Source: Paenibacillus sp. Soil766 (GTDB taxonomy: Bacteria; Bacillota; Bacilli; Paenibacillales; NBRC-103111). Taken from it: a stretch of 64,000 nt of DNA. Positions 15,209 to 41,545 of the stretch are shown here, piece after piece (position 1 is the stretch's first letter; each line of letters opens with the position of its first letter). Under the pieces are notes generated by a model. It was not told the origin of the DNA, ran no database searches, and saw only the letters and a list, made by a program, of their open reading frames with translations. The stretch spans positions 238,318 through 302,317 of the forward strand of contig NZ_LMSJ01000045.1 in assembly GCF_001428105.1 (NCBI RefSeq), written 5' to 3'. Made by a program: the position numbers and the translations under genes.

Positions 15209-15248
15209 CTTACGAAGTCAGTTTTGCCAAGGCAAAACTTTTAGGAGG
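15209..15248 (+). repeat. Hairpin-SD element, copy 1 (before rsmH)
   Basis: CTTACGAAGTCAGTTTTGC leads into a hairpin AGTTTTGCC (15220-15228), AA, GGCAAAACT (15231-15239), then TTTTAGGAGG, the rsmH SD. The first 19 bases recur exactly at 41507-41525. Related hairpins lie at 35933-36007. The element supplies a hairpin a few bases upstream of the ribosome-binding site. Confidence 0.75.
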
Positions 15249-15255
15249 ACAACGA

Positions 15256-16206
15256 GTGTTTCATCATGTGACTGTACTTAAAGAAGAATCTGTAGAAGGT
15301 TTACATATAAAACCAGATGGCGTTTACGTGGATTGTACGATGGGAGGCGCGGGACATAGTGCGCTAATCGCATCCAAATTAGGTCCAGAAGGACTGCTTA
15401 TTGCTCTTGATCAAGATGATGTAGCCTTAGCCAATGCGCAAACGGTGCTTGCACCTTACTTAGATCGCGTGGCCATTATCAAAAGTAACTTCAGAGAAAT
15501 TGAACTAGTGCTACGCGGTGTACCCAAAGCTATGAAGGATGGCAAACCCCAGGTTGATGGCATTTTGTTCGATCTAGGTGTATCTTCTCCGCAGTTAGAT
15601 GATGGCGATCGTGGATTCAGCTACAACCATGATGCTGAGCTCGACATGAGAATGGATCGGGATACGCTGCTTACCGCCAAAACGATCGTAAATGAATGGC
15701 CTGCTGACAAAATTGCTAAAGTGTTATTCGAATATGGGGAAGAAAAGTTCTCGAGACGGATTGCTAGTGTCATTGTAGAAGCAAGAGAAAAGAAAACGAT
15801 TGAAACAACTGGCGAACTCGTGGAATTGATTAAAGAGGGGATCCCAGCTGCCGCAAGACGGACCGGGGGACACCCGGCCAAACGCAGTTTCCAAGCCTTA
15901 CGAATTGCAGTGAATGACGAGCTAGGCGCGTTTGAAGAAGCGCTTCAGCAATCACTTAACTGTTTGGCGCCTCAAGGACGAATCGCGGTCATAACGTTCC
16001 ACTCCTTGGAGGATCGCATCTGTAAACAATTTTTCGTGAAAAATGTGGAGAAATGTACGTGCCCGCCAGCTTTTCCAATGTGTGTTTGTGAGAAGGTTGG
16101 AGATTTGAAGCTCGTTACACGTAAACCAATTCTACCTAGTGAACATGAATTAGAAGTCAATCAAAGAGCCAGATCGGCAAAATTAAGAATAGCAGAAAAG
16201 CTTTGA
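15256..16206 (+). CDS. rsmH: 16S rRNA (cytosine(1402)-N(4))-methyltransferase RsmH
   Basis: A 316-residue SAM-dependent methyltransferase (MraW) that N4-methylates C1402 of 16S rRNA in the decoding centre. Conserved blocks: [11 protein letters not shown] (SAM site, residues about 25-35), [45 protein letters not shown] and FHSLEDR. The start is GTG with TAGGAGG seven bases upstream, part of a repeated hairpin element. It sits between mraZ and ftsL in standard order. Confidence 0.96.
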
Positions 16207-16224
16207 CCAAGGGAGGAATAAGTG

Positions 16225-16686
16225 ATGTCATCATATATTCAAGGCAATTTAGCACTTGATCCGAAACGTAAACCGAATTCTGGGCAGCGTGTGAAGATAA
16301 AAGAAACAACCAAGGTTGTATATCGCAACTCCTCATTGCCAGCGCAAGAGAAAATGCTTTACCTATTCACAGTTGTACTCTGTGTTATTGTTGCTGGAGT
16401 AATCATTTGGCGGTTCGCTGCGATCTATCAGATGAATGCGAATATTTTGAAAATGCAAGGTGAAATCCGTGAAATTCAAGCGCAAAACAGTGCGCTCAAG
16501 CAAGAAGTTGAGAAGTTGCAAAGTCCAGATCGTTTAAAAGAGGAAGCAGTACGCCTCGGGTTTAATTTACAAGATGTGAAGCAAAGCAATGTCGTTGCTC
16601 AATCAACAACATCTACAAAGGCGAAATCGAATACATCGACAGCTACAACGAGTGGCAAAAGTACGAAAACAACGTCTAAACCGTAA
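16225..16686 (+). CDS. ftsL: Cell division protein FtsL
   Basis: A 153-residue single-pass protein: a basic cytoplasmic part, a membrane segment near residues 48-68, and an external leucine-zipper-like coiled coil (about 72-105) with SPDRLKEEAVRLGF. It ends in a Ser/Thr/Lys-rich low-complexity tail (about 122-153). FtsL joins DivIC and DivIB to recruit and activate the septal synthase. Position between rsmH and a class B PBP supports the call. ATG 16225 is preferred over GTG 16222 for SD spacing. Confidence 0.88.
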   Translation: MSSYIQGNLALDPKRKPNSGQRVKIKETTKVVYRNSSLPAQEKMLYLFTVVLCVIVAGVIIWRFAAIYQMNANILKMQGEIREIQAQNSALKQEVEKLQSPDRLKEEAVRLGFNLQDVKQSNVVAQSTTSTKAKSNTSTATTSGKSTKTTSKP

Positions 16687-16701
16687 CGGGCAGGTACTCA
16701 T

Positions 16702-18996
16702 ATGACTAAAAAAATTAAGTTACGATCTTTGCTACTTGGAGGGTTTTTTACCCTTCTTTTTGTTGTCCTCATGGTTAAAGTCTATTGGATTCAAGTGGTA
16801 GAAGCATCCTGGTTGCTAGAGAAGGCAGAGAAGAGATGGGAAACGGATAAAGTGCTGGCCCCCTTACGCGGATCGATCTTGGATCGTAATGATAAGGTGC
16901 TTGCCATAGAAGCAACAGCCTATACGATAGCTCTAAATCCGAAAGTAATCGATGCTTTGCACATTGCCGAGGATGTGACCCAAGGGTTGGCCGATATTTT
17001 GAAAGAATCCGAAGCCTCTCGTTCTGAACTAGTAAATAAGATTCGCGAAAGAGCAACGAAGAAAAATCTGGATGGTACCGACTTCGCTGCCAATGTAGAA
17101 ATACGTAACGAGGGTTGGAAGATTGAGAAAGAAAAGGCGGATCAAGTCCGCGCGCTCATCGCGAATATTCAATTGAAACTGGGTACCAAAAAGCCCGTAG
17201 GGATTTCGATCCTAGAAGATGAAAAGCGATACTATCCAGGTGAATCTTTGGCGAGTCATATACTAGGGTATACGAACAAAGAAGGTGAAGCAGCACTTGG
17301 CCTTGAGCTGCAATTAAACGACACCCTCAAGGGTACTCCAGGAATGCTAAGCTATGAAAAGGATGGCAAAGGCGTAGAACTTCCCGACGCCAAAGTCAAC
17401 TATAAACCTGCGGAAGACGGAAACAATGTTAGACTTACGATCGACAAAAACATACAGTTCTATTTAGAGAGCGCTCTAGCAAAAGTCAATGACAAATGGC
17501 ATCCGAAAGGCTTAACAGCGATCGCGGTTGATCCGAAAACGATGGAAATATTAGGAATGGCGAACACGCCTACTTTTAATCCGAATACGTATTGGAATTT
17601 TAATAGTCAAAATGATTTTAGGAATGGCGCAGTGGCTTCGCGCTATGAACCTGGTTCTACCTTTAAGCTAGTTACTCTTGCAGGAGCTGTGGAAGAGGGC
17701 TTGTTTAATCCGACAGAAACCTATCAATCGGGTGCAATTAAAGTCTCAGACCGTATTCTCCATGACCATAATCTCGTTGGGTGGGGAAAAATTACCTTCT
17801 TAGAAGGTCTGAAGAGGTCTAGTAACGTTGCTTTTGTAAAGCTAGGAATCGAAAAGTTAACGCAGAATAAACTACGTGATTATATTCTTAAGTTTGGTTT
17901 TGATCAAAAAACGAATATTGATATGCCTGGTGAAGTTAAAGGGCTTATTGACATGAAGTACCCATCTGAGTTCGCAACGGCAACTTACGGACAAGGGAAA
18001 GTCGTTGTGACGGCTATCCAACAAACGGCCGCTTATGCAGCCATTGCGAATGGTGGTAAATTGATGTGGCCGCACATTGTGAAGGACATCCTTGACCCCA
18101 AAACAGGGAAGGTAATCACAGCGTATGAACCTCAAGTGATCAGACAAGTTGTAAGTCCACAAACGGCGACGCAAGTGAGTGAATATTTAGAGCAAGTCGT
18201 ATCTGATCAAGAAGTAGGGACTGGTAAACTTGCCTATATGGAAGATTATCGAATAGCAGCAAAAACAGGGACTGCGAATATCGTACTTCCTGGTGAAAAA
18301 ACGTACTCACCCGATACGTGGGTAATCTCATTTATTGGCTATGCGCCAGTTGAGGATCCACGGATTCTAATTACACTTATCGCAGATCAGCCTGATCTTG
18401 GCGGAAACTATCATTTAGGCGGGCAAGTCTTAGCGCCTGCTTTCAAAGAAATCGTAGGCGAGTCTTTACAGTACATGGGGGTTGCCTCAAGTAAGAAACC
18501 GAAAACAATCACCAAAGAAGCGAATCGTCTAAATGTACCGAACTTGTTAGATGTTACATCGACAAGCGCGAAAGGGACTGCCAAAGATATTGGCCTATCA
18601 CTTGAAGTTTTTGGTAAAGGTGAGACGGTGGTTGATCAGTTTCCCAAGGCTGGCACTCAAATTTTATCAACGCAGCATATTTACGTTGCCATGCAACCCG
18701 TTGAGGAAATGCCGCTTCCGAATCTAGTTGGTAAATCCCTACGTGATGCCGTTGAGACTTGTTCCTTCTTCAAAATTGATTGTCAAACTACAGGGGAAGG
18801 GTATGTGTCAGAGCAATCCGCTGCAGGTGAAGGACGTGGCGTAACACTGCAACTCAAGCCGTTAAGTGATAAATCAGACACAGCAAGCGGAGCTACTCCT
18901 GTTGCAACACCAACGAATGCAGCGACGCCATCATCAACGCCTAATGCCAAGACAGAGACACAACGAACGACAGCAACAGCAAATAAGCAACGTTAG
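16702..18996 (+). CDS. pbpB: Septal penicillin-binding protein 2B (class B PBP with PASTA domains)
   Basis: A 764-residue class B transpeptidase that crosslinks septal peptidoglycan. It has one N-terminal membrane segment (about 9-27), a dimerisation domain with LRGSILDRNDKVLA, then the transpeptidase domain with STFK (Ser319 nucleophile), SSN and KTGTAN (about 521). Two PASTA domains follow (about 610-740). A Thr/Ala/Pro-rich tail closes it. By position and size it is the PBP2B/FtsI partner of FtsW. The SD is weak for this cluster. Confidence 0.93.
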   Translation: MTKKIKLRSLLLGGFFTLLFVVLMVKVYWIQVVEASWLLEKAEKRWETDKVLAPLRGSILDRNDKVLAIEATAYTIALNPKVIDALHIAEDVTQGLADILKESEASRSELVNKIRERATKKNLDGTDFAANVEIRNEGWKIEKEKADQVRALIANIQLKLGTKKPVGISILEDEKRYYPGESLASHILGYTNKEGEAALGLELQLNDTLKGTPGMLSYEKDGKGVELPDAKVNYKPAEDGNNVRLTIDKNIQFYLESALAKVNDKWHPKGLTAIAVDPKTMEILGMANTPTFNPNTYWNFNSQNDFRNGAVASRYEPGSTFKLVTLAGAVEEGLFNPTETYQSGAIKVSDRILHDHNLVGWGKITFLEGLKRSSNVAFVKLGIEKLTQNKLRDYILKFGFDQKTNIDMPGEVKGLIDMKYPSEFATATYGQGKVVVTAIQQTAAYAAIANGGKLMWPHIVKDILDPKTGKVITAYEPQVIRQVVSPQTATQVSEYLEQVVSDQEVGTGKLAYMEDYRIAAKTGTANIVLPGEKTYSPDTWVISFIGYAPVEDPRILITLIADQPDLGGNYHLGGQVLAPAFKEIVGESLQYMGVASSKKPKTITKEANRLNVPNLLDVTSTSAKGTAKDIGLSLEVFGKGETVVDQFPKAGTQILSTQHIYVAMQPVEEMPLPNLVGKSLRDAVETCSFFKIDCQTTGEGYVSEQSAAGEGRGVTLQLKPLSDKSDTASGATPVATPTNAATPSSTPNAKTETQRTTATANKQR

Positions 18997-19028
18997 TGAA
19001 CAGCTTGTTCTAACCCCTGGTTGTCCCG

Positions 19029-19057
19029 AATAGTCATGTTAGGAATGAACATGACAT
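19029..19057 (+). promoter_or_regulatory. Candidate sigma-E promoter for spoVD, with an inverted repeat
   Basis: AATAGT (19029-19034) and CATGACAT (19050-19057) are 15 bases apart and resemble sigma-E -35 and -10 elements. Bacillus spoVD is known to be sigma-E controlled. The same bases hold a perfect inverted repeat GTCATGTT/AACATGAC (19033-19055), so a hairpin or operator is a competing reading. Confidence 0.35.
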
Positions 19058-19082
19058 TAGTGGGAAGGGAGACTGAACGTTC

Positions 19083-21011
19083 ATGCGGGCTTCTAACGTT
19101 ACCGTTCGTCGCAGATTGTTTACGGCGTTAATTATTGGAACTGTCATCTTTACTGCACTTATCATCCGCTTAGCTTATGTCCAGCTTGTGATTGGACAAG
19201 ATCTAGCGAAGAAGGCTAATGACAGTTGGCGTAGAGAAATTGATTTTGCACCCAAACGAGGCGAAATTCAAGACCGTAATGGCTTGACGCTTACGTATAG
19301 TATGAGTACTCCTACGCTTGTGGCGATTCCTATACAAATTAAAGATGCTCACGCCACAGCAGCTAAATTGGCACAAGTGTTGGACGGCAATGAAGATGAC
19401 ATTTACAAGCAAATTACCAAGAAGGCAATGCAAAACTATATAAAGCCATCGGGCCGTAAAATTACGATTGAGAAGGCGAAGGAGGTTCGTGAACTGCAAC
19501 TGCCCGGCATCGTGGTAGCTGAGGATAATAAACGCTATTATCCGTATGGTTCGCTTGCTGCTCATATTCTTGGTTTCGCGGGGATTGATAAAGGACTAAC
19601 AGGGATTGAGTCTAAGTACAACTCCCAACTGACAGGCCTGGCAGGGAATATTGCCTATATGACAGATGCGGCAGGCCGGACATTACCTGGTACAACGGAT
19701 ACGTACACCCCGCCTAAAGATGGGTTGAATGTGAAACTGACCATCGACAGCCATCTGCAATCGGTGATGGAACGTTCGTTAGATCAAGCAATGGTGCAAT
19801 ATCAAGCGCAGAATGTCATTGCCATCATGATGGATCCGAATACTGGCGAGATCTTGTCAATGGGCAGCCGACCGACGTATGATCCAGCCAAATATATGGA
19901 GTCGCCGGCTGAAACGTACAATCGGAATTTACCGATTTGGAAAACGTATGAGCCAGGTTCTACATTTAAGATTATTACCCTTGCCGCAGCGCTGGAAGAA
20001 AAGAAAGTAGATCTAAAGAATGAGCAGTTCTTTGATCCAGGCGCTATTGAAGTTGGAGGAGCAAGGCTGCGTTGTTGGAAACGCGGTGGGCATGGCAGCG
20101 AAACGATGCTGCAGGTTGTTCAGAACTCATGCAACCCGGGGTTCGTTGTGATGGGGCAACGGTTAGGGAAAGAGAAATTATTTGATTATATTTCCCGATT
20201 TGGTTTTGGTAAAAAGACAGGTATTGATCTTGGCGGTGAAGAGAATGGGATTATGTTCAAACCATCGCAAGTAGGTCCTGTGGAGTTGGCCACAACCGCG
20301 TTCGGTCAAGGGGTTTCCGTAACACCAATCCAGCAAATTACTGCGGTCTCAGCAGCGATCAATGGCGGCAAGCTATTTAAGCCTTATGTTGCCAAATCAT
20401 TTTCCAATCCGGATACGGGTGAAGTTGTCGATGTTGTTGAGCCAGAGTTAGTCCGAAATGTCATTTCGGAGGATACGTCCAGACAAGTTCGTGAAGCGCT
20501 GGAGAGCGTTGTCGCGAAGGGGACGGGGCGCAATGCATTTATTGACGGCTATCGTGTTGGCGGAAAAACAGGAACAGCCCAGAAGGTTATCAATGGACGT
20601 TATTCACCTGATGAGCATATCGTGTCATTCATTGGCTTTGCGCCTGCGGATAATCCGAAAATTGTTGTCTATGCGGCAGTAGATGATCCGAAAGGGATTC
20701 AATTCGGGGGTCTGATTGCAGCTCCTTTAGTCAGAGATATCATGGCGGATGCACTGCGTTACATGAAGGTTGAACCGGACAAGAATCAACTGGATAAAGA
20801 TTATCGCTATGGTGAAATTCCAGTTGTTGAAGTGCCGGACTTGGTTGGAGCGTCAGTTGATGATATATTAGAAGACCTGAACATGAATTTTAAGCTGGCC
20901 AAATCCGGGAATGGGAAGTATGTCATCTCTCAAGCCCCTAAAGCAGGCTCACGTGTGGATCAGGGTTCTACGATTCGTATCTTCTTATCCAATGTAGATC
21001 CTGAAAAGTAA
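19083..21011 (+). CDS. spoVD: Stage V sporulation protein D (class B PBP, SpoVD)
   Basis: A 642-residue class B PBP, paralogue of the gene just upstream. It has an N-terminal membrane segment (about 10-30), RGEIQDRNG, STFK with Ser293, a Cys-containing region (LRCWKRGGHGS, QNSCNPG) typical of SpoVD, KTGTAQ (Lys495) and one C-terminal PASTA domain (about 580-638). SpoVD makes cortex peptidoglycan with SpoVE; the extra cysteines are the known target of redox control by StoA/ResA-like proteins. A single PASTA domain and the order pbpB-spoVD support the call. Confidence 0.9.
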   Translation: MRASNVTVRRRLFTALIIGTVIFTALIIRLAYVQLVIGQDLAKKANDSWRREIDFAPKRGEIQDRNGLTLTYSMSTPTLVAIPIQIKDAHATAAKLAQVLDGNEDDIYKQITKKAMQNYIKPSGRKITIEKAKEVRELQLPGIVVAEDNKRYYPYGSLAAHILGFAGIDKGLTGIESKYNSQLTGLAGNIAYMTDAAGRTLPGTTDTYTPPKDGLNVKLTIDSHLQSVMERSLDQAMVQYQAQNVIAIMMDPNTGEILSMGSRPTYDPAKYMESPAETYNRNLPIWKTYEPGSTFKIITLAAALEEKKVDLKNEQFFDPGAIEVGGARLRCWKRGGHGSETMLQVVQNSCNPGFVVMGQRLGKEKLFDYISRFGFGKKTGIDLGGEENGIMFKPSQVGPVELATTAFGQGVSVTPIQQITAVSAAINGGKLFKPYVAKSFSNPDTGEVVDVVEPELVRNVISEDTSRQVREALESVVAKGTGRNAFIDGYRVGGKTGTAQKVINGRYSPDEHIVSFIGFAPADNPKIVVYAAVDDPKGIQFGGLIAAPLVRDIMADALRYMKVEPDKNQLDKDYRYGEIPVVEVPDLVGASVDDILEDLNMNFKLAKSGNGKYVISQAPKAGSRVDQGSTIRIFLSNVDPEK

Positions 21012-21123
21012 CCATCATAGACAAAAAAACAAAAAAAGATTTATCAATAAGACATGTTTAGCTTTTCTACCTGCATAAAATTGTCCATAATAGATAGAGA
21101 ATTCAAGGAAGAGAGGGTTGCTT

Positions 21124-22614
21124 ATGAAACTGCAGGAGCTTGCTTCCGCACTGCTCATTACCCACATTCATGGCGATAAAGACACGGAAATCACGGGAAT
21201 TGAGGCAGACTCTCGTAAAATAAAGCCGGGTGATTTGTTTTTTTGTATCCCTGGATTAACCGTTGATGGTCACGATTACGCCCCTAAAGCGATTGCGCTT
21301 GGGGCTTCTGCGCTTGTTACGGAGAGAGTGCTGGACCTACCAGTCACTCAACTCGTTGTAAAAGATGCCAGGTATGCCATGGCAGCTCTTTCTGCGCATT
21401 TTTTCGGGTACCCAAGTAAAGAACTTAAAATTATCGGAATTACCGGAACGAATGGGAAAACGACATCTACGTATTTGCTGGAAAAAATCATCGCAGATCA
21501 AGGCTTTGTCACCGGGTTAATGGGCAATATTCATATTAAAATTGGTGATACCTATATAGAAAATAAAGCCACAAATACCCAGGAATCCATGGAGCTTCAA
21601 CGGATCCTTCGAACTATGGCGGATTCTGGCGTTCAGTATTGCGTCATGGAGGTTACGTCGAGCGGCTTAGATATGGGACGGGTGAAGGGCATCAATTTCC
21701 GTTCAAGCATTTTTACGAATCTTACACAAGATCATTTGAATGAACATAAAACCATGGAAGCGTATGCTGCTGCGAAAAGCTTATTATTTTCCAGACTTGG
21801 GAATGGCTTTTCGGCTGATCCGGAAAGCAGGCAGTATGCGATTCTCAACGTGGATGATGAAGCGTCAAGCATGATGCAGAAGGTAACCGCTGCACAAGTT
21901 ATTAGCTACGGCATAGAACGTGAATGCGATGTGCGCGCTACAGACATTCGTATGTCCGCCAAAGGAACTGAATTTCAAGTGAAATCCTTTGCTGGCGAAG
22001 CATTTTTCCGTATGCAACTAGTCGGTAAATTCAATGTGTATAATGCACTTGGAGCCATTGCGGCGGCATTAGCAGAAGGATTTGCACTGGAAGCGATTCG
22101 TGATAGTCTGGAGCGTATAGCACTCGTAGAAGGTAGAATGGAAGTCGTGAACGAGGGGCAAGACTATTTGGTTTTAGTTGACTATGCGCATACGCCGGAT
22201 GGTTTAGAGAATGCCCTCTCCACGGTAAGTGAGTTTGCCGAAGGAAAAATCATTACCGTATTTGGTTGTGGCGGTGATCGCGACAAAACGAAGCGTCCCA
22301 TCATGGGGAAAGTGGCTGCACACTATAGCGACCTTCTTTATGTAACGTCTGATAATCCGCGCACAGAAGATCCAGATGCGATATTGGCAGATATTGAGCC
22401 GGGGCTCAAAGAAGTTAATTACCCAGATAATCAATATATTTTACTGGCTGATCGTAAAAAAGCGATACAAAAGGCTATTGAAGGGGCAGGCCCTAAAGAT
22501 GTAATATTGATAGCGGGAAAAGGCCACGAAACGTATCAGGATATCATGGGTGTCAAGCATGATTTCGACGATCGGTTGGTGGCTAAGGCTGCGATAAGGG
22601 GGAGAACACAGTGA
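21124..22614 (+). CDS. murE: UDP-MurNAc-L-Ala-D-Glu:meso-DAP ligase MurE
   Basis: A 496-residue Mur ligase that adds the third residue to the UDP-MurNAc peptide. The ATP loop GTNGKTTST is near residues 108-116. The DNPR motif at 410-413 is the signature for meso-diaminopimelate rather than lysine. That fits the dapH/patA/dapL genes later in the window. I start at ATG 21124 (GAGAGGG six bases upstream) rather than TTG 21118. It ends overlapping murF by four bases. Confidence 0.95.
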   Translation: MKLQELASALLITHIHGDKDTEITGIEADSRKIKPGDLFFCIPGLTVDGHDYAPKAIALGASALVTERVLDLPVTQLVVKDARYAMAALSAHFFGYPSKELKIIGITGTNGKTTSTYLLEKIIADQGFVTGLMGNIHIKIGDTYIENKATNTQESMELQRILRTMADSGVQYCVMEVTSSGLDMGRVKGINFRSSIFTNLTQDHLNEHKTMEAYAAAKSLLFSRLGNGFSADPESRQYAILNVDDEASSMMQKVTAAQVISYGIERECDVRATDIRMSAKGTEFQVKSFAGEAFFRMQLVGKFNVYNALGAIAAALAEGFALEAIRDSLERIALVEGRMEVVNEGQDYLVLVDYAHTPDGLENALSTVSEFAEGKIITVFGCGGDRDKTKRPIMGKVAAHYSDLLYVTSDNPRTEDPDAILADIEPGLKEVNYPDNQYILLADRKKAIQKAIEGAGPKDVILIAGKGHETYQDIMGVKHDFDDRLVAKAAIRGRTQ

Positions 22615-23993: not shown

Positions 23994-24053
23994 TTAGCGT
24001 AATAGTATGCCATATTTGAAATAGAGTAACGGAAATGAGCAGGGGGAACCAAC

Positions 24054-25013: not shown

Positions 25014-25016
25014 AAC

Positions 25017-27608: not shown

Positions 27609-27615
27609 CAGGGGA

Positions 27616-31088: not shown

Positions 31089-31101
31089 TTTCTTGTGTGG
31101 C

Positions 31102-31143
31102 TATCGCGTATCCCTTCCTGTATGCAGGAGGGGATTCGCGATA
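31102..31143 (+). other. Strong hairpin between murA and divIB
   Basis: TATCGCG pairs with CGCGATA (31102-31108, 31137-31143), then ATCCC with GGGAT and CCTG with CAGG around TATG, about 16 base pairs in all. No T-run follows. The divIB SD lies 28 bases downstream. A role in RNA stability or processing is possible. Confidence 0.5.
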
Positions 31144-31184
31144 TTCACTTCAATCGTCATTATAATAATTAGGTGGTGCCCCTC

Positions 31185-32009: not shown

Positions 32010-32219
32010 CAACAGTCATAGTGCGGAGGAACTTTCAAAAAATCGTTGCAGATACTACTCAATCTCTGAAAAAAATGTTAAAATTAGTTTTATGGTTAAA
32101 TAGGCTCTATCTGCATACTCTATTTTTTCTTGTATTTACTAGACGAAGTTGTTTGCATTTTACAACATGGAAAAGAGAAGTTGAAGTTGGGTTTTAAATG
32201 CAAAAAAAATGTAGAAAAA

Positions 32220-32248
32220 AGAGGGAATATGGCGGTTGTGTGGAATAC
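32220..32248 (+). promoter_or_regulatory. Candidate sigma-H promoter for ftsA-ftsZ
   Basis: AGAGGGAAT (32220-32228) then 11 bases then GTGGAAT (32240-32246) fits the sigma-H pattern RnAGGAWWW-N11-RnnGAATWW with two mismatches. B. subtilis ftsAZ is known to have a sigma-H promoter for sporulation. The rest of the 299-base gap (32010-32308) is AT-rich. It has no real gene and no clear sigma-A promoter. Confidence 0.4.
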
Positions 32249-32308
32249 GTATAGGAGCATTTGTGAAGAATTTGCAATTTTACCTAAGTTACAGGAGGTG
32301 CCAGGGGC

Positions 32309-33553: not shown

Positions 33554-33584
33554 TGAAACGTTAAGTTAGGGGGATATGGCTCAT

Positions 33585-34709
33585 ATGTTTGAATTTGATA
33601 TGGATTTAGACCAACTGGCTCAAATTAAAGTCATTGGTGTTGGTGGCGGCGGTAGTAACGCAGTGAATCGCATGATTGAAAATGGTGTTAAAGGTGTAGA
33701 ATTTATTACTGTGAATACGGATGCACAGGCGCTTCATTTGGCCAAATCCGTTCATAAATTGCAAATTGGCGATAAATTGACCCGTGGTCTAGGCGCAGGT
33801 GCAAATCCTGAAGTCGGGAAGAAAGCAGCAGAAGAGTCAAGGGAGACGATTCTGAATACACTTCGCGGCGCTGATATGGTGTTCGTAACGGCAGGTATGG
33901 GCGGCGGTACAGGTACAGGAGCTGCTCCAGTCATTGCGGAAATCGCAAAAGAGGTAGGCGCACTTACAGTTGGTGTAGTGACGCGACCGTTTACTTTCGA
34001 AGGACGTAAGCGCTCCTTACAAGCAGAGCAAGGGATTGCTGCATTGAAAGAGAAAGTAGATACACTTATTATTATCCCGAATGATCGCCTACTTGAGATT
34101 GTTGACAAGAAGACTCCGATGCTTGAAGCATTCCGCGAAGCAGATAATGTACTTCGTCAAGGTGTTCAAGGGATCTCAGATTTGATCGCAGTACCAGGAC
34201 TTATCAATTTGGACTTTGCAGATGTCAAAACGATTATGACTGAACGCGGTTCCGCCCTTATGGGGATCGGGGTAGCTACAGGTGAGAATCGTGCGGCAGA
34301 AGCGGCGAAAAAAGCGATCTCAAGTCCTTTGTTGGAAACATCAATTGAAGGCGCACGTGGTGTTTTGATGAATATCACAGGCGGTATGAACCTTAGCTTG
34401 TACGAAGTGAATGAAGCTGCTGATATCGTGGCATCTGCTTCTGACATTGAGGTGAATATGATCTTCGGTGCTGTTATTGATGAGAAGTTAAAAGATGAAA
34501 TCTTAGTTACTGTTATTGCAACTGGTTTCGAACATAAAGCAGCTCCTATTCATCAATCTATCAAACGTCCGGTTTCGCCAGGACAACCAGAGACAGCAGC
34601 ACCTGACAATCGCTTAAATAATCTTAAACCATTTGGTGCGCAACCATCTAATGATCAATTAGATATTCCGACTTTCTTACGAAATCGCGGACGCAATACT
34701 GACAAATAA
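33585..34709 (+). CDS. ftsZ: Cell division protein FtsZ
   Basis: A 374-residue tubulin-like GTPase that forms the Z ring. The GTP signature GGGTGTG is at about 106-112, with [14 protein letters not shown] before it and [11 protein letters not shown] for the T7 loop. A flexible linker (about 315-355) leads to the C-terminal peptide [11 protein letters not shown] that binds FtsA and SepF. I start at 33585 (MFEFD) because ATG 33576 is only two bases from the SD. A terminator follows. Confidence 0.97.
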
Positions 34710-34730
34710 TTACATAATAATTGTCTAGAG

Positions 34731-34767
34731 ACCGAAGCCCTATTTGATGTAGGAGCTTCGGTTTTTT
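34731..34767 (+). terminator. Terminator after ftsZ
   Basis: ACCGAAGC pairs with GCTTCGGT, extended by CCTA/TAGG inside, and a run of six T follows. It closes the dcw cluster before the sporulation block. Confidence 0.88.
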
Positions 34768-34842
34768 GTTGTTCTGTAAGCTTTTATCCTGTGGACGGGA
34801 CCGCGTTAACTGACAAAAAAAGTAACTTCCTACTAGCATGTT

Positions 34843-34875
34843 TAGACAGACTTTGAACTTGGAATCCAATATACT
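34843..34875 (+). promoter_or_regulatory. Candidate spoIIG promoter with long spacing
   Basis: TAGACA (34843-34848) and TATACT (34870-34875) are 21 bases apart. The B. subtilis spoIIG promoter is known for a similar over-long gap and for needing Spo0A~P. TTAGACA (34842-34848) matches a reversed Spo0A box (TTCGACA) but for one base and overlaps the -35, as in that model. Spacing and boxes are seen; control by Spo0A is inferred. Confidence 0.5.
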
Positions 34876-34942
34876 GATTTAGAAGCGGAAAGTTTCGTCA
34901 CGAAATTGCTAGATAGTGCCCTTCTTGGAGGTGAGGCATGGC

Positions 34943-35866
34943 ATGGTCGTCTATGCGGATCTCATTTTCCTGTTGAACTTTCTGGTGGATGCAGCCATAC
35001 TTCTGGTCACTGCAAAAACGCGGAAAATAGCGTTCAAATGGTGGAGAATTGTACTTTCTGCAGCATTAGGGGCTTCGTATGTCGTTATGATGTTTTTACC
35101 AGTACCAATTATCTTTTTTACATTTTCTGTGAAATGTATGTTCTGTACAGGTATGATTATTACCGCTTTTGGTTACGGTTCCTTACAAAATTTATTTCGG
35201 AATATGGGAACTTTTTTACTCATCAATTTTGCTGTTGCTGGTGGGATGTTCGGCATCCATTATGTGCTCGCCTCTTCCTCTGACGTTATGAAGGGAATTA
35301 TATTTACGCAATCTGGCGTCGCTGAATTTCAAATTCAAATTGGTAGCATCTTGTTTGTGGTCCTTTTGCTGCTTCCTCTCATCTGGTGGTTTAGAACGGT
35401 GTTCCAAAGCAGTAAGCAGCGTGAGGTTATGACGACTTATTTGGCAGAGGTTACGATTTACGTTGGTGATTTCAGCGCCACCTGCAAAGGCTTGATCGAT
35501 ACTGGTAACCAACTGTATGATCCATTGACTCGAACACCAGTTATGGTTATGGAAGTATCGGAATGGGGAGATGTTCTGCCTGAGCTATGGCTGCAAAGGA
35601 TACGATCATCTGATGTGGATCAAATCATCAGCGGCATAGGTGTAGAGGAGTTTATTTGGCAGGACCGTTTGCGACTCGTACCTTACCGTGGAGTCAACCG
35701 GAATACACAATTTATGCTGGCTATTAAACCCGATAAGGTGGTGATCATTCATAATGAATCGCAATTGGAGGCAACGAAAGTGCTCATAGGGCTCGACGGG
35801 GGGAAGTTGTGCAGCGACGGTTCCTATCAAGCCATTATTCATCCTGCTTTGATTCAAGCTGGTTAA
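34943..35866 (+). CDS. spoIIGA: Sporulation sigma-E factor-processing peptidase SpoIIGA
   Basis: A 307-residue membrane aspartic protease that cuts the pro-sequence of sigma-E in the mother cell. The N-terminal half has five membrane segments (from VYADLIFLLNFLVD). The C-terminal half is a retropepsin-like domain with the catalytic DTGNQLYDP (Asp186). I start at ATG 34943 because the family begins with the short M-x-x-Y stretch, and GGAGGTG lies upstream; earlier in-frame starts lack an SD. sigE follows after 149 bases. Confidence 0.93.
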   Translation: MVVYADLIFLLNFLVDAAILLVTAKTRKIAFKWWRIVLSAALGASYVVMMFLPVPIIFFTFSVKCMFCTGMIITAFGYGSLQNLFRNMGTFLLINFAVAGGMFGIHYVLASSSDVMKGIIFTQSGVAEFQIQIGSILFVVLLLLPLIWWFRTVFQSSKQREVMTTYLAEVTIYVGDFSATCKGLIDTGNQLYDPLTRTPVMVMEVSEWGDVLPELWLQRIRSSDVDQIISGIGVEEFIWQDRLRLVPYRGVNRNTQFMLAIKPDKVVIIHNESQLEATKVLIGLDGGKLCSDGSYQAIIHPALIQAG

Positions 35867-35932
35867 TGCTACAAGATATGTTGCTAGAACATGAGACATG
35901 AGAGCTTCAACGGCAGTACATGGTTTATTTTT

Positions 35933-36007
35933 ACAAAGTCAGTTTTCCATTGGAAAACGCAGCTTAGCTTACGATGAAAGTTTTGCTATGGCAAAACTCT
36001 TAGGAGG
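35933..36007 (+). repeat. Hairpin-SD element, copy 2 (double, before sigE)
   Basis: Two related hairpins stand in line: GTTTTCC-ATT-GGAAAAC (35942-35958) after ACAAAGTCA, and GTTTTGC-TATG-GCAAAAC (35980-35997) after CTTACGATGAA. TCTTAGGAGG, the sigE SD, follows. The first half keeps the AAGTCAGTTTT core and the second the CTTACGA core, as though one element were duplicated. Confidence 0.65.
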
Positions 36008-36015
36008 AAACTAAC

Positions 36016-36738
36016 ATGTTCTTGAAGTGGAAACTGCTTGTTCAACTAACGTATTATCGCATTTTGATGTTGCTAGGACTCAAAGGTGAGGAAATCTATT
36101 ACATAGGTGGTAGTGAAGCATTGCCACCGCCGCTTACTCGTGAAGAAGAAGAATACTTATTGGAAAAATTACCATCCGGGGATGCGGCTATTCGAGCTAT
36201 GTTGATTGAACGCAACCTGAGATTGGTTGTCTATATAGCGAGGAAATTCGAAAATACGGGCATTAACATCGAGGATTTGGTTTCGATTGGAGCAATCGGT
36301 CTCATTAAAGCAGTAAATACATTTGACCCCGAGAAGAAGATTAAGCTTGCAACCTACGCATCACGTTGTATCGAGAATGAGATTCTGATGTATTTACGCA
36401 GAAATAGTAAAATTCGAACAGAAGTATCGTTTGATGAACCGTTGAATATTGATTGGGATGGTAATGAGCTTCTATTGTCTGATGTGTTAGGCACAGAGAA
36501 TGATACCATTTACCGGAATATCGAAGAACAAGTTGATCGGAAGCTTCTACATAAAGCACTTGATAAGCTTAGTGAACGTGAACGTATTATCATGGAGCTG
36601 CGCTTCGGGTTACAGGATGGAGAAGAAAAGACGCAGAAAGACGTTGCAGATCTGTTAGGTATTTCGCAATCGTATATCTCCAGATTGGAAAAACGGATCA
36701 TAAAACGGCTTCGCAAAGAGTTTAACAAGATGGTCTGA
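36016..36738 (+). CDS. sigE: RNA polymerase sporulation sigma factor SigE (pro-form)
   Basis: A 240-residue sigma-70 family factor that drives early mother-cell genes. The N-terminal pro-sequence (about the first 27 residues, amphipathic) precedes [13 protein letters not shown], and SpoIIGA is expected to cut near residue 28. Region 2 ([35 protein letters not shown]) and region 4 ([21 protein letters not shown]) are intact. It forms the spoIIG operon with spoIIGA. ATG 36016 follows TAGGAGG. Confidence 0.97.
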
Positions 36739-36836
36739 AAATTTTTTTTGGCAGTAAATGTCGAAATTGTCCAGCAGTCACGGGAGGGAGCGAGTCAGTA
36801 CCCTTTTGTCAAGTGGCCGAGCAAGGGATGTGGCAG

Positions 36837-36865
36837 GAATAAATCGACCGCTCACGGGGATAATT
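36837..36865 (+). promoter_or_regulatory. Possible forespore (sigma-F/G) promoter for sigG
   Basis: GAATA (36837-36841) lies 15 bases before GGGATAATT (36857-36865), loosely like sigma-F/G -35 and -10 elements (two mismatches in the -10). Bacillus sigG is forespore-controlled. A Spo0A-box core TGTCGAA also lies in this gap at 36759-36765. Confidence 0.28.
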
Positions 36866-36898
36866 AACAGTAATGTTTCTCCTTGGGAGGTAATCACG

Positions 36899-37681
36899 GT
36901 GACCCGAAATAAAGTTGAGATATGTGGAGTTGACACCGCCAAACTGCCTGTGCTGACCAATGCAGAGATGCGTGAGTTGTTCACTGACCTGCAAACAAAA
37001 CAGGAACGAACTGCAAGAGAGAAATTGGTCAATGGCAATTTAAGGTTGGTACTGAGTGTGATTCAACGGTTCAACAATCGTGGAGAGTATGTGGACGATC
37101 TCTTCCAAGTTGGCTGTATTGGTTTGATGAAAGCCATTGATAACTTTGATTTAAGTCAAAATGTCAAATTCTCGACCTATGCTGTACCGATGATTATAGG
37201 TGAGATACGCCGCTACTTACGAGATAATAACCCGATTCGCGTTTCTCGTTCCTTGAGAGATATTGCTTACAAAGCATTGCAAGTAAGAGACAGTCTAACG
37301 AATCAAAACTCACGCGAGCCTTCTATTTATGAAATTTCTGAAGCCTTGAATGTACCCAAAGAAGATGTCGTGTTCGCTCTTGATGCCATTCAAGATCCTG
37401 TATCCTTATTTGAACCCATTTATCATGATGGCGGCGATCCGATTTATGTCATGGATCAAATAAGCGATGAGCGCAATAAAGACATGTCATGGATCGAGGG
37501 TATCGCATTGCGCGAAGCCATGCATAAGTTGAATGCTAGAGAGAAGATGATCTTATCCATGCGCTTCTTTGAAGGGAAGACCCAGATGGAAGTGGCTGAT
37601 GAGATTGGCATTTCTCAAGCGCAGGTGTCCAGGTTGGAGAAATCAGCTATTTGTCAGATGCAGAAACATGTGAAATCCTAA
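36899..37681 (+). CDS. sigG: RNA polymerase sporulation sigma factor SigG
   Basis: A 260-residue sigma factor for late forespore genes. It starts VTRNKVEICGVDTAKLPVLTN (GTG start), the typical SigG N-terminus. Region 2 (VNGNLRLVLSVIQRF, DLFQVGCIGLMKAIDNFD) and region 4 (TQMEVADEIGISQAQVSRLEK) are intact. I start at GTG 36899 because TTGGGAGG is eight bases upstream and the length equals the usual 260; an open frame reaches back to 36758 without an SD. A terminator follows. Confidence 0.96.
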   Translation: MTRNKVEICGVDTAKLPVLTNAEMRELFTDLQTKQERTAREKLVNGNLRLVLSVIQRFNNRGEYVDDLFQVGCIGLMKAIDNFDLSQNVKFSTYAVPMIIGEIRRYLRDNNPIRVSRSLRDIAYKALQVRDSLTNQNSREPSIYEISEALNVPKEDVVFALDAIQDPVSLFEPIYHDGGDPIYVMDQISDERNKDMSWIEGIALREAMHKLNAREKMILSMRFFEGKTQMEVADEIGISQAQVSRLEKSAICQMQKHVKS

Positions 37682-37691
37682 GTGCAATTAA

Positions 37692-37738
37692 CAAAGACTG
37701 GAACGGCTCGGGTAGACAAGCCGTGAAGGTCTTTTTTT
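37692..37738 (+). terminator. Terminator after sigG
   Basis: AAAGAC pairs with GTCTTT and ACGGCT pairs with AGCCGT around a ten-base loop. Seven T follow. Confidence 0.82.
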
Positions 37739-37822
37739 GTGGTTCAGGACATTTTGCCCATTAGACACATATACTAATAAAAAACAGTACAAATTCTAAT
37801 GAGATATGTGGTGATAGGCCTC

Positions 37823-38122
37823 ATGAAAATATCTGATTTCCAGACGAAGGACGTTATTAATATTGTGGACGGTAAGAAGCTTGGACAAATCAGCGATTTG
37901 GAGCTTGACCTGCGCCAAGGACGAATCGAATCCATCGTTGTTCCAAATCAGAGTCGATTTTTTGGACTGTTCGGAACAGGGACTGATGTGATCATACCTT
38001 GGAAGCATATCGTAAAAATTGGTGCTGACGTTGTGCTTGTTAAGCTAGAAGACGTTCGGCCATACCGGCAATCGGACGACACCGAAGGGGTATATGAGTT
38101 TAATCGTCAATTTCGAAATTGA
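37823..38122 (+). CDS. ylmC: YlmC/YmxH family sporulation protein (PRC-barrel)
   Basis: A 99-residue PRC-barrel protein starting MKISDFQTKDVINI with DLELDLRQGRIESIVVP and FGTGTDVIIPWKHI, typical of YlmC/YmxH. Relatives belong to the sporulation regulon; the molecular role is unknown. The start at ATG 37823 follows GTGGTGATAGG; an in-frame ATG at 37799 has no SD. CATATACT at 37768-37775 resembles a sigma-E -10, with a weak -35. A 26-base perfect palindrome covers its stop codon. Confidence 0.88.
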   Translation: MKISDFQTKDVINIVDGKKLGQISDLELDLRQGRIESIVVPNQSRFFGLFGTGTDVIIPWKHIVKIGADVVLVKLEDVRPYRQSDDTEGVYEFNRQFRN

Positions 38123-38127
38123 CGATT
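38102..38127 (+). repeat. 26-base perfect palindrome over the ylmC stop codon
   Basis: AATCGTCAATTT (38102-38113), CG, AAATTGACGATT (38116-38127). It includes the last codons and TGA of ylmC and abuts the terminator stem at 38128. Confidence 0.8.
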
Positions 38128-38192
38128 GACACACGGGGACGCTGTATCTGCTGCATAAACAGCTGATCAGACATCGTGTGTCTTTTTATTTT
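38128..38192 (+). terminator. Terminator after ylmC
   Basis: GACACACG (38128-38135) pairs with CGTGTGTC (38175-38182). The loop can fold further, and a T-rich run follows. Confidence 0.75.
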
Positions 38193-38235
38193 GTGCTAAA
38201 GTAGATTAATACATATTGGGATGGAGGGATTTGTA

Positions 38236-39096
38236 GTGGAACCATTTGTCGTGCAACCATCATTACAATCAAATGAGGATCATCCGGTCCTTTTACCAAT
38301 AGCCTCGTGGATGTCATTATTTCCTGAGATTACTGCTGGCTTCAGTACACGTTTAGGCGGAGTAAGTCAAGCGCCATTCTCAACACTAAATCTTGGTTTG
38401 CACGTGAATGATAACCAGGATGATGTTGTGCGTAATCGAGAGCTCGTTGCTGATGCTGTAGGGCAGTCATTTGCTTCTTTTACCTATGCGGAGCAGGTGC
38501 ATGGGAAAGACATTGCTATTGTCAGTCTGAATGAGCAAGGCATGGGGCGTGATTGCAGAGAAAAAGCGCTTCAAGCGAAGGATGGATTTATAACTAATGA
38601 GCAAGGCATCGTACTTTGTGCGCAATTTGCGGATTGTGTACCCTTATATTTCTATGATCCCGTAAAGCGAGCAGTGGGTCTAGCCCATGCCGGTTGGAAA
38701 GGCACTGTGTTAAACATTTCCATGGCTACAATATCCTTAATGACACATACTTTTGGTAGCCGACCATCTGATATCCGAGCAGCTATAGGACCTTCAATTG
38801 GAGTCTGTTGCTATGAGGTTGATCAGACGGTAGCATCGCGCGTTAGGTTGGTTATTGAGGAAACGCAGATAACATCTGAGGAACAAAAAGCCATTATCAC
38901 TGATAAAGGTAACGAGAAGTATATGTTGAATTTACAATTATTAAATCAGAAATTAATCGAGCAAGCAGGAATTTTGTCGTCCCATATCGAAGTAACTCAG
39001 TTATGTACGAGTTGCCGAACTGACCTCTTCTTTTCACATCGAAAGGAAGGGGGTTCCACAGGGCGAATGATCGCTTGGATCGGTCTTCGCCCCTAA
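38236..39096 (+). CDS. pgeF: Peptidoglycan editing factor PgeF (laccase domain)
   Basis: A 286-residue laccase-domain protein (YlmD/YfiH). Relatives remove wrongly added serine from UDP-MurNAc precursors or act as purine nucleosidases. The zinc-binding pattern is present: YAEQVHGKDI, FADCVPLYFYDP, AHAGWKGT, GPSIGVCCYEV. I choose GTG 38236 because GGAGGG lies seven bases upstream; ATG 38221 would itself carry that SD. Place in the ylm block beside wall genes suits the editing role. Confidence 0.9.
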   Translation: MEPFVVQPSLQSNEDHPVLLPIASWMSLFPEITAGFSTRLGGVSQAPFSTLNLGLHVNDNQDDVVRNRELVADAVGQSFASFTYAEQVHGKDIAIVSLNEQGMGRDCREKALQAKDGFITNEQGIVLCAQFADCVPLYFYDPVKRAVGLAHAGWKGTVLNISMATISLMTHTFGSRPSDIRAAIGPSIGVCCYEVDQTVASRVRLVIEETQITSEEQKAIITDKGNEKYMLNLQLLNQKLIEQAGILSSHIEVTQLCTSCRTDLFFSHRKEGGSTGRMIAWIGLRP

Positions 39097-39139
39097 GGAA
39101 CTGGAAATGGCAATGTGTTTGAATTGAGGTGTAGAGAGA

Positions 39140-39826
39140 ATGAGTGTATTGGAACGTAAACAAGAGGTTGAAGCTCGAATAGCAACTGTATGTCGGGAGT
39201 CAGGCCGTAAAGAAAATGACATTAAGATCATCGCAGTAACCAAATATGTATCTTTAGAAACGACAGAACAAGTATTGAACACGGGTCTACAGCATATTGG
39301 AGAAAATCGTTGGCAAGATGTAAAGCCAAAGTGGGAAGCTCTGCATGAGCGAGGAACATGGCATTTTCTAGGGCATTTGCAGACGAATAAAGTGAAGGAT
39401 GTTATCGGCAAATTCGCTTATATTCACTCACTGGATCGGATGTCGCTTGCGAAAGAGTTGGACAAACAAGCTGCGGCATTGGGGATAGAAGTCAATTGTT
39501 TCCTACAAGTGAATATTTCCGGTGAAGCAACAAAATATGGCGTATCGCCACAAGAGTTCTTCCAATTTGCAGAGGAAGTAAGTAAGCTTGCTCATATCCG
39601 CGTTTGCGGATTGATGACGATGGCTCCTTATGAGTTAGAATCCGAAGAAACAAGACCCGTTTTTCGAGGGCTACGCGAGCTTCGGGATCAATTGAATGAA
39701 CGGAAGTTGTTTCCTTATGGTGTGACTGAGCTATCTATGGGGATGTCAGGCGACTTCGACGTGGCCATTCAAGAAGGTGCAACCTGGGTTCGCTTAGGTA
39801 CTGTTTTGGTAGGTAAAGAGGGCTAA
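39140..39826 (+). CDS. ylmE: YggS/YlmE family pyridoxal phosphate homeostasis protein
   Basis: A 228-residue PLP-binding TIM-barrel protein of the PLPBP (YggS) family. AVTKYVS holds the PLP lysine, and IGENRWQDVKPKW, WHFLGHLQTNKVK, and LSMGMSGDFDVAIQEGATWVRLG are the family blocks. It has no known enzyme activity and keeps free PLP in balance. GAGGTG is nine bases upstream. Conserved between pgeF and sepF in Gram-positives. Confidence 0.93.
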   Translation: MSVLERKQEVEARIATVCRESGRKENDIKIIAVTKYVSLETTEQVLNTGLQHIGENRWQDVKPKWEALHERGTWHFLGHLQTNKVKDVIGKFAYIHSLDRMSLAKELDKQAAALGIEVNCFLQVNISGEATKYGVSPQEFFQFAEEVSKLAHIRVCGLMTMAPYELESEETRPVFRGLRELRDQLNERKLFPYGVTELSMGMSGDFDVAIQEGATWVRLGTVLVGKEG

Positions 39827-39880
39827 AGGGCATTAGGAATTTAATTCCTATGTGTATGATTTCGATAGGAGGGAATCGCT

Positions 39881-40303
39881 ATGGGTGTGTATAACCGATT
39901 TATGAACTTTCTGGGACTTCAGGAAGAGGAAGAAATTGTAGAGCGTGAACGTATTGTAGAAGCAACAGAAGAACCTGAAACCAATCCATACGAATTACGT
40001 AATAAAAATAAGGCGAATGTCGTCAGTATTCATTCACAGAAGAATTCACGCGTTGTCCTTAGTGAACCCCGCACTTATGAGGAAACTCAGGACATTGCAG
40101 ACCATCTACGCGCTCGTAGAGCGGTTGTCGTTAATTTGCAACGAGTTCGCGGCGATCAAGCTATCCGAATCGTAGATTTCTTGAGTGGTACGGTTTACGC
40201 ATTGAATGGGTCTATCTCTAAGCTTGGACCGAATATTTTTCTCTGTACACCAGACTCAGTAGATATTCATGGTCATATCTCTGAGATGATGGGCGAGGAA
40301 TAG
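39881..40303 (+). CDS. sepF: Cell division protein SepF
   Basis: A 140-residue protein with an N-terminal membrane-binding helix ([13 protein letters not shown]), an acidic and charged linker (about 15-50), and the SepF domain (about 55-135: [23 protein letters not shown], then [11 protein letters not shown]). SepF forms arcs that anchor FtsZ to the membrane and bundle filaments, in part doing the job of FtsA. TAGGAGG lies upstream. Confidence 0.95.
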
Positions 40304-40343
40304 ACGCATATCCCCAAACACATAGACAGAGGTGGGAAACAAC

Positions 40344-40616
40344 GTGGATAACGTTTACTCTTTTTTAAGCATTTTGACAGAAATTTATTATTTCATGATT
40401 ATTGGTTATTTGATCTTATCTTGGTTTCCAAACGCGCGTGGCAGTTTTGTCGGTGGACTGCTCTCGAAGCTGGTTGAACCGTATTTGGCTCCATTCCGCA
40501 AAATCATACCTAGTATCGGTTTCATTGACCTCTCGCCAATCGTGGCATTGATCGCTTTGAAATTTGTCGTTATGGGTATCTTTGCTGTTCTAGATTTCAT
40601 CGTGGGGATTTTCTAG
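40344..40616 (+). CDS. ylmG: YggT family membrane protein YlmG
   Basis: A 90-residue YggT-family protein with two membrane segments and the linking block LVEPYLAPFRKIIPSIGFIDLSP, a hallmark of the family. The role is uncertain; plant relatives affect nucleoid and chloroplast division. I start at GTG 40344 behind AGAGGTGGG; GTG 40332 would fall inside that SD. Confidence 0.9.
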   Translation: MDNVYSFLSILTEIYYFMIIGYLILSWFPNARGSFVGGLLSKLVEPYLAPFRKIIPSIGFIDLSPIVALIALKFVVMGIFAVLDFIVGIF

Positions 40617-40618
40617 TC

Positions 40619-41401
40619 TTGACGAAAGATATCTATGGGCATTTTCACCAAGACGAGCATCATTTTGTTGATAAAGCCTGGGATTGGGTAGAGCGAGCTG
40701 CGCTGCAGCATGCTGTGAAGTTAACCGATTTCCTCGATCCCAGACAAGCTTTTATTCTGAATTCACTCGTCAACCGACACCCGGATGTACATTGCCGACT
40801 GGATGGCGGCTATGAAGCAGCAGAGCGTAAGCGTGCAATTATTGCTCCTGACTACCGCAGCTTGGATAGTGAAGACATGGCAATGGCTGTGTTAGCAGTA
40901 TCCTCGGGAGATGGCAAATTTCTTACGTTAGAACACGGAGATTACATGGGCGCCATTCTTGGACTCGGCATGAAGCGAGACAAGGTTGGCGATATTCATG
41001 TTATAGAGGGTGGTTGCCATTGCTTGGTCACCCAGGATGCAGCCGACTATTTGCATTTGAATTTGTCACAAGTACATAGAGTGCATGTCCAAACGGAATT
41101 GCTCTCTTTAGATAAGCTGGAAGTAGCGCAAGTGCAATTAGATGAGCTTCAACTATCCGTTGCCTCCATGCGTATGGACGGAATTGTAAGCGATGTATTT
41201 CGGCTTAGCCGAGCCAAAGTATTGATTCCAATCCAGGCAGGTCGTTGCCGCGTCAATTGGAAGTTGGAAGAAGATCCAAGTAAGCCGCTGAAAGAAGGCG
41301 ATATGATCTCTTTGCAGGGCTTTGGTAGATTTAAAGTGCTTGAAGTGGAAGGCGTATCGAAAAAAGGTCGAATTCGTGTGAAGATTGGCAAGTTTGCATG
41401 A
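40619..41401 (+). CDS. ylmH: S4-domain RNA-binding protein YlmH
   Basis: A 260-residue YlmH protein: an N-terminal YlmH domain (RQAFILNSLVNRHPDVHCRLDGGYEAAERKR region) and a C-terminal S4 RNA-binding domain (about 182-255, LQLSVASMRMDGIVSDVFRLSR). Recent work on relatives links it to rescue of stalled ribosomes. The start is TTG 40619, two bases after the ylmG stop, with GTGGGG some 12 bases upstream. A palindrome begins at the first base after its stop. Confidence 0.92.
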   Translation: MTKDIYGHFHQDEHHFVDKAWDWVERAALQHAVKLTDFLDPRQAFILNSLVNRHPDVHCRLDGGYEAAERKRAIIAPDYRSLDSEDMAMAVLAVSSGDGKFLTLEHGDYMGAILGLGMKRDKVGDIHVIEGGCHCLVTQDAADYLHLNLSQVHRVHVQTELLSLDKLEVAQVQLDELQLSVASMRMDGIVSDVFRLSRAKVLIPIQAGRCRVNWKLEEDPSKPLKEGDMISLQGFGRFKVLEVEGVSKKGRIRVKIGKFA

Positions 41402-41422
41402 TCGTGGATAAATTATCCACGA
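41402..41422 (+). promoter_or_regulatory. Palindromic pair of near-consensus DnaA boxes
   Basis: TCGTGGATAA, A, TTATCCACGA is a perfect palindrome starting right after the ylmH stop. Each half holds a 9-mer (TTATCCACG) one base from the DnaA box TTATCCACA. A Spo0A-box core TGTCGAA follows at 41447-41453. The 151-base gap leads to divIVA. It may be a DnaA site or simply a stable hairpin. Confidence 0.45.
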
Positions 41423-41506
41423 ACTATGCAGGAATTGCTAACTTTCTGTCGAACTGAACTGTATAGACATGGGTATAGGCTAGCTTTGAGTCAAGCTCAG
41501 CTTATA

Positions 41507-41545
41507 CTTACGAAGTCAGTTTTGCTGCGCAAAACGCTAAGGAGG
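41507..41545 (+). repeat. Hairpin-SD element, copy 3 (before divIVA)
   Basis: CTTACGAAGTCAGTTTTGC (identical over 19 bases to copy 1) leads into GTTTTGC-TGC-GCAAAAC (41519-41535), then GCTAAGGAGG, the divIVA SD. Confidence 0.75.

Follow-up and report, generated by a model that had tools for sequence, protein, structure and literature searches.

A structured element before three genes of the window

We analysed a stretch of 64,000 nucleotides (nt) from Paenibacillus sp. Soil766, hereafter the window, in which a short element lies before rsmH, sigE and divIVA, just upstream of the Shine-Dalgarno sequence (SD) of each gene. Its 19-nt core, CTTACGAAGTCAGTTTTGC, occurs exactly and on the forward strand at 15209-15227 (before rsmH) and at 41507-41525 (before divIVA), two matches that an earlier reading made from the letters of the window (the sequence-only reading) had reported and that we confirmed. 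Two copies with three mismatches each stand before sigE, at 35930-35948 and 35968-35986; the doubled, diverged form announced for this locus is a tandem pair, which starts at 35930 and not at 35933. These are the 4 core matches that a search with up to three mismatches gives in the 64-kb window, against 0.02 expected in shuffled sequence. Every copy runs into a hairpin, as had been proposed, but its stem is not GTTTTGC/GCAAAAC throughout, the first sigE copy having GTTTTCC/GGAAAAC. The AGGAGG that was said to come a few bases past the hairpin does so after the last copy of each locus, 3 nt on, and leads into the start codon (Table 1).

Table 1. Parts of the element and native SDs at the three loci of the window
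Feature	Position	Strand	Basis or remark
rsmH copy, conserved unpaired segment ATGCTTACGAAGTC	15206..15219	+	core search, linker consensus
rsmH copy, hairpin AGTTTTGC-CAAG-GCAAAACT	15220..15239	+	folding, covariation
rsmH native SD AGGAGG	15243..15248	+	3 nt past hairpin; GTG start 15256
sigE array unit 1, diverged: TTTACAAAGTC + hairpin AGTTTTCC-ATT-GGAAAACG	35930..35959	+	core search
sigE array unit 2: CTTACGATGAA + hairpin AGTTTTGC-TATG-GCAAAACT	35968..35998	+	core search, covariance model
sigE native SD AGGAGG	36002..36007	+	ATG start 36016
divIVA copy, unpaired segment ATACTTACGAAGTC	41504..41517	+	core search
divIVA copy, hairpin AGTTTTGC-TGC-GCAAAACG	41518..41536	+	folding
divIVA native SD AGGAGG	41540..41545	+	ATG start 41553

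Anatomy of the unit

The unit is made of an unpaired linker, AUGCUUACGAWGH (ATGCTTACGAWGH), a covarying hairpin of 7-8 bp and a spacer of 2-3 nt, after which comes the SD. In arrays, the units follow each other head to tail with a period of about 40 nt, and among the copies found with a profile that leaves out the SD the hairpins are 19 to 22 nt long (core lengths 30-33). Single-sequence folding z-scores of the window copies are weak (-0.88, -1.66 and +0.46), so that the case for a structure rests on covariation and not on stability. This covariation was measured in 206 units picked by linker and SD only, pairing not being selected for. Their stem cells are paired in 91.6% of cases versus 83.1% after shuffling, with 119 double-change cells (maximum in 200 shuffles, 47) and 25 extra pair types (shuffled maximum, 20). 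Pair 7, for instance, is GC in 103 units, CG in 62, TA in 14 and AT in 4, and G-T pairs are present within the stem, 13 at pair 1 and 11 at pair 2. With the 19 copies of the own genome, the covariation score was reached by none of 500 shuffles.

A primary sequence conserved this strongly could also mean that the element acts as DNA, bound by a protein with a role in transcription or replication. The G-T pairs in the stem, together with the sense orientation of the copies and their tight spacing to the SD, make this very unlikely in our view.

The linker predicts the hairpin: a stem of at least 7 bp comes after 250 of 386 linker hits, versus 23 of 386 random positions. Conversely, 101 of 104 units anchored on hairpin and SD have CGANGNN and the remaining 3 a near form; the linker was not asked for in this set, but its loci had originally been found by linker and hairpin. 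A-14 (95 of the 104 units) and G-12 (94) both lie outside the locus-finding pattern. In a larger set of 411 units, retrieved by a search that demanded T-9, G-6 and G-3, position -4 carries T for A in 93. Two further pairings were tried on these 411 units and rejected. For a second linker hairpin, CUU-NCG-AAG, proposed by RNAalifold on long forms of the element, the paired counts stay within the shuffled range, and an upstream hairpin, AAGC-NNAU-GCUU, shows at best a slight excess (290 versus 275 at one column pair).

The ATG within the linker (A in 95, T in 80 and G in 94 of 104 units before CTTACG) could be imagined to start a short leader peptide coupling its translation to that of the gene, all the more as a 20-nt hairpin lets the frame end in a TAG that overlaps with the SD, for example at rsmH. 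We find this barely credible: the triplet is ATA at divIVA and TAG in the second sigE unit, the stem changes follow pairing, and the frame is not kept, because hairpins of 19 to 22 nt give different registers.

A long form of 68-76 nt exists in family f10 and was also seen in two families of Bacilli outside the order (G178, G205); the loci with the long form are L345 and L347-L364 (L and G denote our locus and genome handles). It keeps the linker, the closing stem and the SD spacing around a larger, conserved interior with a second CGAAG.

Copies and target genes in the own genome

The sequence-only reading had described a dispersed, hairpin-bearing element before start codons, and copies near an SD and an open reading frame (ORF) were recovered in this genome and in its relatives. 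A 19-mer search without the SD (3 mismatches) gives 24 places in the own genome, which on reading are 20 SD-adjacent copies, 2 upstream array members and 2 chance-like matches (L017, L024). A covariance model built from 19 copies gives at least 34 matches at E<=0.001; the model contains the SD, so that its counts favour SD-adjacent copies. Directly behind 32 of these 34 matches come an SD-like sequence and the start of an ORF. Of the other two, one is an eroded copy before rpmJ, with extra sequence in between (L057), and one is an antisense copy between genes (L058).

Scanned for families, 28 of the 34 downstream proteins gave a match in all but 6 cases. The named targets are RsmH, a SafA-type coat protein, NDK, NuoI, MtnK, NAD kinase, LeuA, LeuD, pyrimidine-nucleoside phosphorylase, a DivIVA-domain protein, a protein with sigma-70 regions (SigE), UDP-GlcNAc 2-epimerase, MecA, a PF13797 post-transcriptional regulator, PTS EIIC/EIIB, a histidine kinase and an acetyltransferase. 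A FadB-type dehydrogenase, an Xaa-Pro peptidase, two sugar ABC permeases and a chelatase-like ATPase fall below the curated cut-offs. No common pathway is evident: the targets are functionally mixed, and the rule that all of them are linked to division or sporulation, drawn from the three window loci, did not survive. The PF13797 target lies at L027:1552-1833; this family has a link to ComN and DivIVA.

Position relative to the Shine-Dalgarno sequence

The position counts come from an SD-free scan of named genomes with the linker and hairpin pattern, which gave at least 119 stretches with titles of Paenibacillus, Gordonibacillus, Paenibacillaceae or a Bacilli metagenome-assembled genome. At 80 of these loci, 107 exact copies divide into 61 before an SD and ORF, 36 in tandem and 10 others. 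Read singly, four of these ten do have an SD and a start (L196, L203, L204, L248), one is in an array (L193), one is at an edge (L247) and four are without SD (L205, L213, L237, L263); on the other side, L234 is counted with SD and ORF by accident only. The SD-free profile, at a score of at least 20, finds 206 copies in 119 loci: 103 before an SD and ORF, 94 in tandem, 1 at an edge and 8 others, one of which (L281) has another unit behind it. Of the 94 tandem copies, 93 lead along their array to a unit before an SD and ORF, and the last runs off its locus; in total, 196 of the 206 copies stand at an SD and start codon or are connected to one by the units that come after them. The copies are thus not equally common away from start codons, and they lie in sense orientation to the gene that follows. 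At scores of 14-20 there are 57 copies (15 SD, 32 tandem, 10 other, 9 of these 10 being reverse-strand palindrome matches), and at 8-14, by rule alone, 103 hits (11 SD, 38 tandem, 54 other).

An AGGAG-type SD lies 0-5 nt past the hairpin end in 92 of the 206 copies (two end positions tried), versus 2150 of 200,000 random positions (one tried; 1.1%). This strict rule is the better control, because the loose one also fires at 509 of 6000 random positions (8.5%). The gap between hairpin and SD is 1-3 nt in 106 of 112 SD cases. These 112 belong to 250 stem-bearing units, of which 100 more are tandem and 38 are unclassified by rule; read singly, the latter are a mixture of units with weaker SDs (AGGGGG, AGGTGG), with a wrongly chosen stem or with a diverged next unit, of linkers matched by chance and of copies that truly lack an SD. 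The 96 target genes carry arrays of one (34), two (35), three (20), four (6) or five (1) units, and their SDs are stronger, with a 6-base match in 82 of 96 versus 185 of 769 controls. The SDs are predicted to be more open behind their native upstream 48 nt (0.452) than behind shuffled versions of it (0.376; 65 of 91 genes, p=4e-7).

A further possibility is that a global RNA-binding protein or a small RNA binds to the element, recognising the linker, and thereby represses or activates the translation of a large regulon. A hairpin adjoined by some 12 unpaired and strongly conserved nt is what such a site might look like, and tandem sites could give avidity. We nevertheless hold this to be improbable, considering that the targets are mixed, that occupancy varies between genomes, that the SD is not hidden according to the predictions and that the complementarity of the linker to 16S rRNA and the next 4.7 kb is no better than that of shuffled linkers. 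This pairing test used L398, which spans 16S and an unannotated 4.7 kb after it; the longest Watson-Crick match was 8, outside 16S, and shuffled linkers mostly gave 7-8 and up to 12.

Spread across genomes

Copy numbers per genome from the covariance model are lower bounds. At E<=0.001, matches were found in 29 of 40 relatives, and each genome of the same genus has at least 7 to 136 copies. Sampling across the order, we found matches at E<=1e-5 in 114 of 149 genomes; a sample across the class gave 19 of 200, of which 3 lie outside the order and have a single copy each. The distribution suggests a family centred on Paenibacillus and relatives. The same sites are occupied across genomes: a copy precedes rpmJ in all 13 low-copy genomes of genus g31 searched (diverged in G117), as it does in 2 further genera, both of family f1 (L325, L338), and diverged copies precede atpG in at least 6 of the low-copy g31 genomes. 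The products were named by PF00444 (rpmJ) and PF00231 (atpG); in the same Pfam check, NuoL of L334 had no match and RplX of L333 matched the KOW motif only.

Rfam 15 recognised a T-box and a PyrR site in the window and left the element unmatched; no family was found at 7 further loci scanned, and the only hit in a search of 10 loci at E<=3 was a lysine riboswitch in L345, which lies more than 500 nt away from the element. A description of the element was not found in literature searches, which covered part of the literature. The element is apparently undescribed. It is real, widespread, structured and locked to the SD, and it mixes traits of a dispersed repeat and of a regulatory RNA.

Gain and loss of units

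Occupancy at rsmH, sigE and divIVA was read by eye, own genome included. Before rsmH, the element occurs at 20 of 24 same-genus loci, and the number of its units there ranges from 1 to 3 or more (G003 is not among these loci); G013, G014, G018 and G021 are without it. At sigE, it is present in 24 of 25 same-genus genomes, diverged in some and missing in G018, and at divIVA in some form in 21 of 25, with hairpin-only remnants in G007, G011, G013 and G023. Such presence in most genomes of the genus fits vertical inheritance at these three loci. Array length, on the other hand, varies between species, and ndk has one unit in G000 and G022, two in G006, one and a bare hairpin in G012, and none in G008, G018 and G019. 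What distinguishes G000 from G008 is a single complete unit, which adjoins AGGAGG on its 5' side; G008 has an empty site in the orthologous gap. A three-gene tree places G008 among the filled genomes, with the forks inside that group open, and a precise loss of the ndk unit in G008 is therefore the shorter story. The idea that the element spread as a small mobile unit is partly supported, by the one-unit difference at ndk and by the array lengths, but not by the vertical pattern at sigE, rsmH and divIVA. Furthermore, the element does not bring its own ribosome-binding site, as the sequence-only reading had it, because the rsmH and ndk sites without element retain AGGAGG.

In G003, rsmH was matched as two overlapping pieces (G003:C1:5835239-5836187), which suggests a frameshift in the genome or the assembly.

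Could the element be a miniature repeat of the selfish kind, resembling REP or BOX, that inserts itself beside SDs or is tolerated there and is functionless for the cell? Its variable copy number within one genus, its tandem arrays, the one-unit indel at ndk and the nesting of a few copies within another repeat (L213, L234, L263) would agree with it. The selfish repeat is however unlikely, given that nearly all copies are in sense and at or chaining to an SD at a tight distance, that stem changes are compensatory and that the element precedes rpmJ in several genera. No transposase was identified near the non-SD copies, where only ORF positions were listed and no genome-wide transposase search was made.

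Comparison with known systems

BOX elements are composed of boxA, boxB and boxC modules. In Streptococcus pneumoniae and S. mitis they resemble the present family as abundant intergenic repeats that expand and shrink at corresponding positions; the part of the source used here reports inversions and does not mention a tie to the SD (PMC2828477), and the two are set apart by description, not by sequence. The RAYT-associated REP and REPIN are likewise short, palindromic, of high copy number and plausibly transcribed, with G-T stem pairs, but the excerpted source gives them a GTAG or CGTC tag, a location that is mainly downstream of coding regions and an arrangement in dimers (PMC3733652). The present element has neither tag, its unpaired segment being the linker given above; it stands before SDs and not downstream of genes, and the arrays read are head to tail and not dimers of opposite orientation. 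In the cip-cel operon, stem-loops set the stability of the flanking transcripts, a comparable arrangement; these are varied stem-loops of one operon, and the portion of the source considered does not describe a repeat family (PMC10311766).

A precedent is the cggR-gapA transcript of Bacillus subtilis, in which a hairpin on the 5' side of the downstream gene stabilises the product of RNase Y and is thought to protect the cleaved end, RNase Y sites favouring cleavage between G and A (PMC11780869, consulted in part). The hairpin just upstream of the SD is alike. The known cases concern individual operons and have no clear consensus in that part of the source, whereas one family with a conserved linker and tandem units here stands before tens to more than 100 genes.

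Proposed role of the element

We favour a reading in which the element is a cis-acting module of the mRNA that supports the next gene, through protection of the 5' end, an open SD and a linker read by a factor, and we would give it an even chance. The openness of the native SD and the precedent of 5' hairpins and RNase Y lead us to favour such a positive module; its action on mRNA and its support of downstream expression are what we infer from the sequences. Once the transcript has been cleaved upstream, the hairpin would shield the 5' side against decay in the 5'-to-3' direction, and it would keep the SD free. The linker may be read by a putative trans-acting factor, either an RNase Y-type endonuclease (cutting between G and A within CGA) or an RNA-binding protein. 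Arrays would grow via tandem duplication.

Several points weigh against this cis-acting module. RNase Y sites have no clear consensus and their -1G is dispensable (PMC11780869, same part), while the linker is strongly conserved; this conservation is itself partly built in, because the loci were found via a linker-plus-hairpin pattern. The co-directional upstream neighbour expected of a between-cistron placement of the cggR-gapA type is not enriched (77 of 96 element genes versus 594 of 769 controls, with a simple ORF caller), and operon processing is therefore not specifically indicated. The predicted accessibility of the start codon is the same with native as with shuffled upstream sequence. 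In the 19-copy test, double-change pairs were reached in 254 and further pair types in 375 of 500 shuffles. Moreover, 7 of the 8 "other" profile copies are away from any SD, the 38 of 250 stem units mentioned above are neither SD nor tandem by rule, the own genome has an antisense intergenic copy (L058:1520-1560), and copy number differs from at least 7 to at least 136 among genomes of one genus.

A bolder extension, which we put forward as speculative and rather doubtful, would see here an undescribed global post-transcriptional system of Paenibacillus and relatives. In it, a dedicated factor would read the linker beside the hairpin in tens to more than 100 mRNAs, the module would be seeded specifically at SDs, and genes would enter or exit the regulon per 40-nt unit gained or lost. 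The existence of a covarying repeat family that lies in sense 2-3 nt from the ribosome-binding site, before housekeeping genes of mixed function, suggests that post-transcriptional control can be rewired by repeats for many genes at once. Close pairs of filled and empty sites and the copy range within the genus make this idea directly testable, the linker could serve as bait for the candidate factor and, if the element raises expression, it would be a ready-made expression part for Paenibacillus.

Other features

Another repeat, about 114 nt long (GGTCGCTCATCTT ... CTTCGATAGAGGTTTTCT), was seen at L193:426-830 and in L213, L234, L263, L270, L281 and L387, with three tandem copies in Paenibacillus piri; it had no Rfam match in the five loci scanned (L193, L213, L234, L263, L281). 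In L213, L234 and L263, the CTTACGAAG hairpin lies inside it. In the window, the T-box leader recognised by Rfam is at 42102-42349, before an ORF at 42406, and the PyrR site at 54657-54830, before an ORF at 54891.

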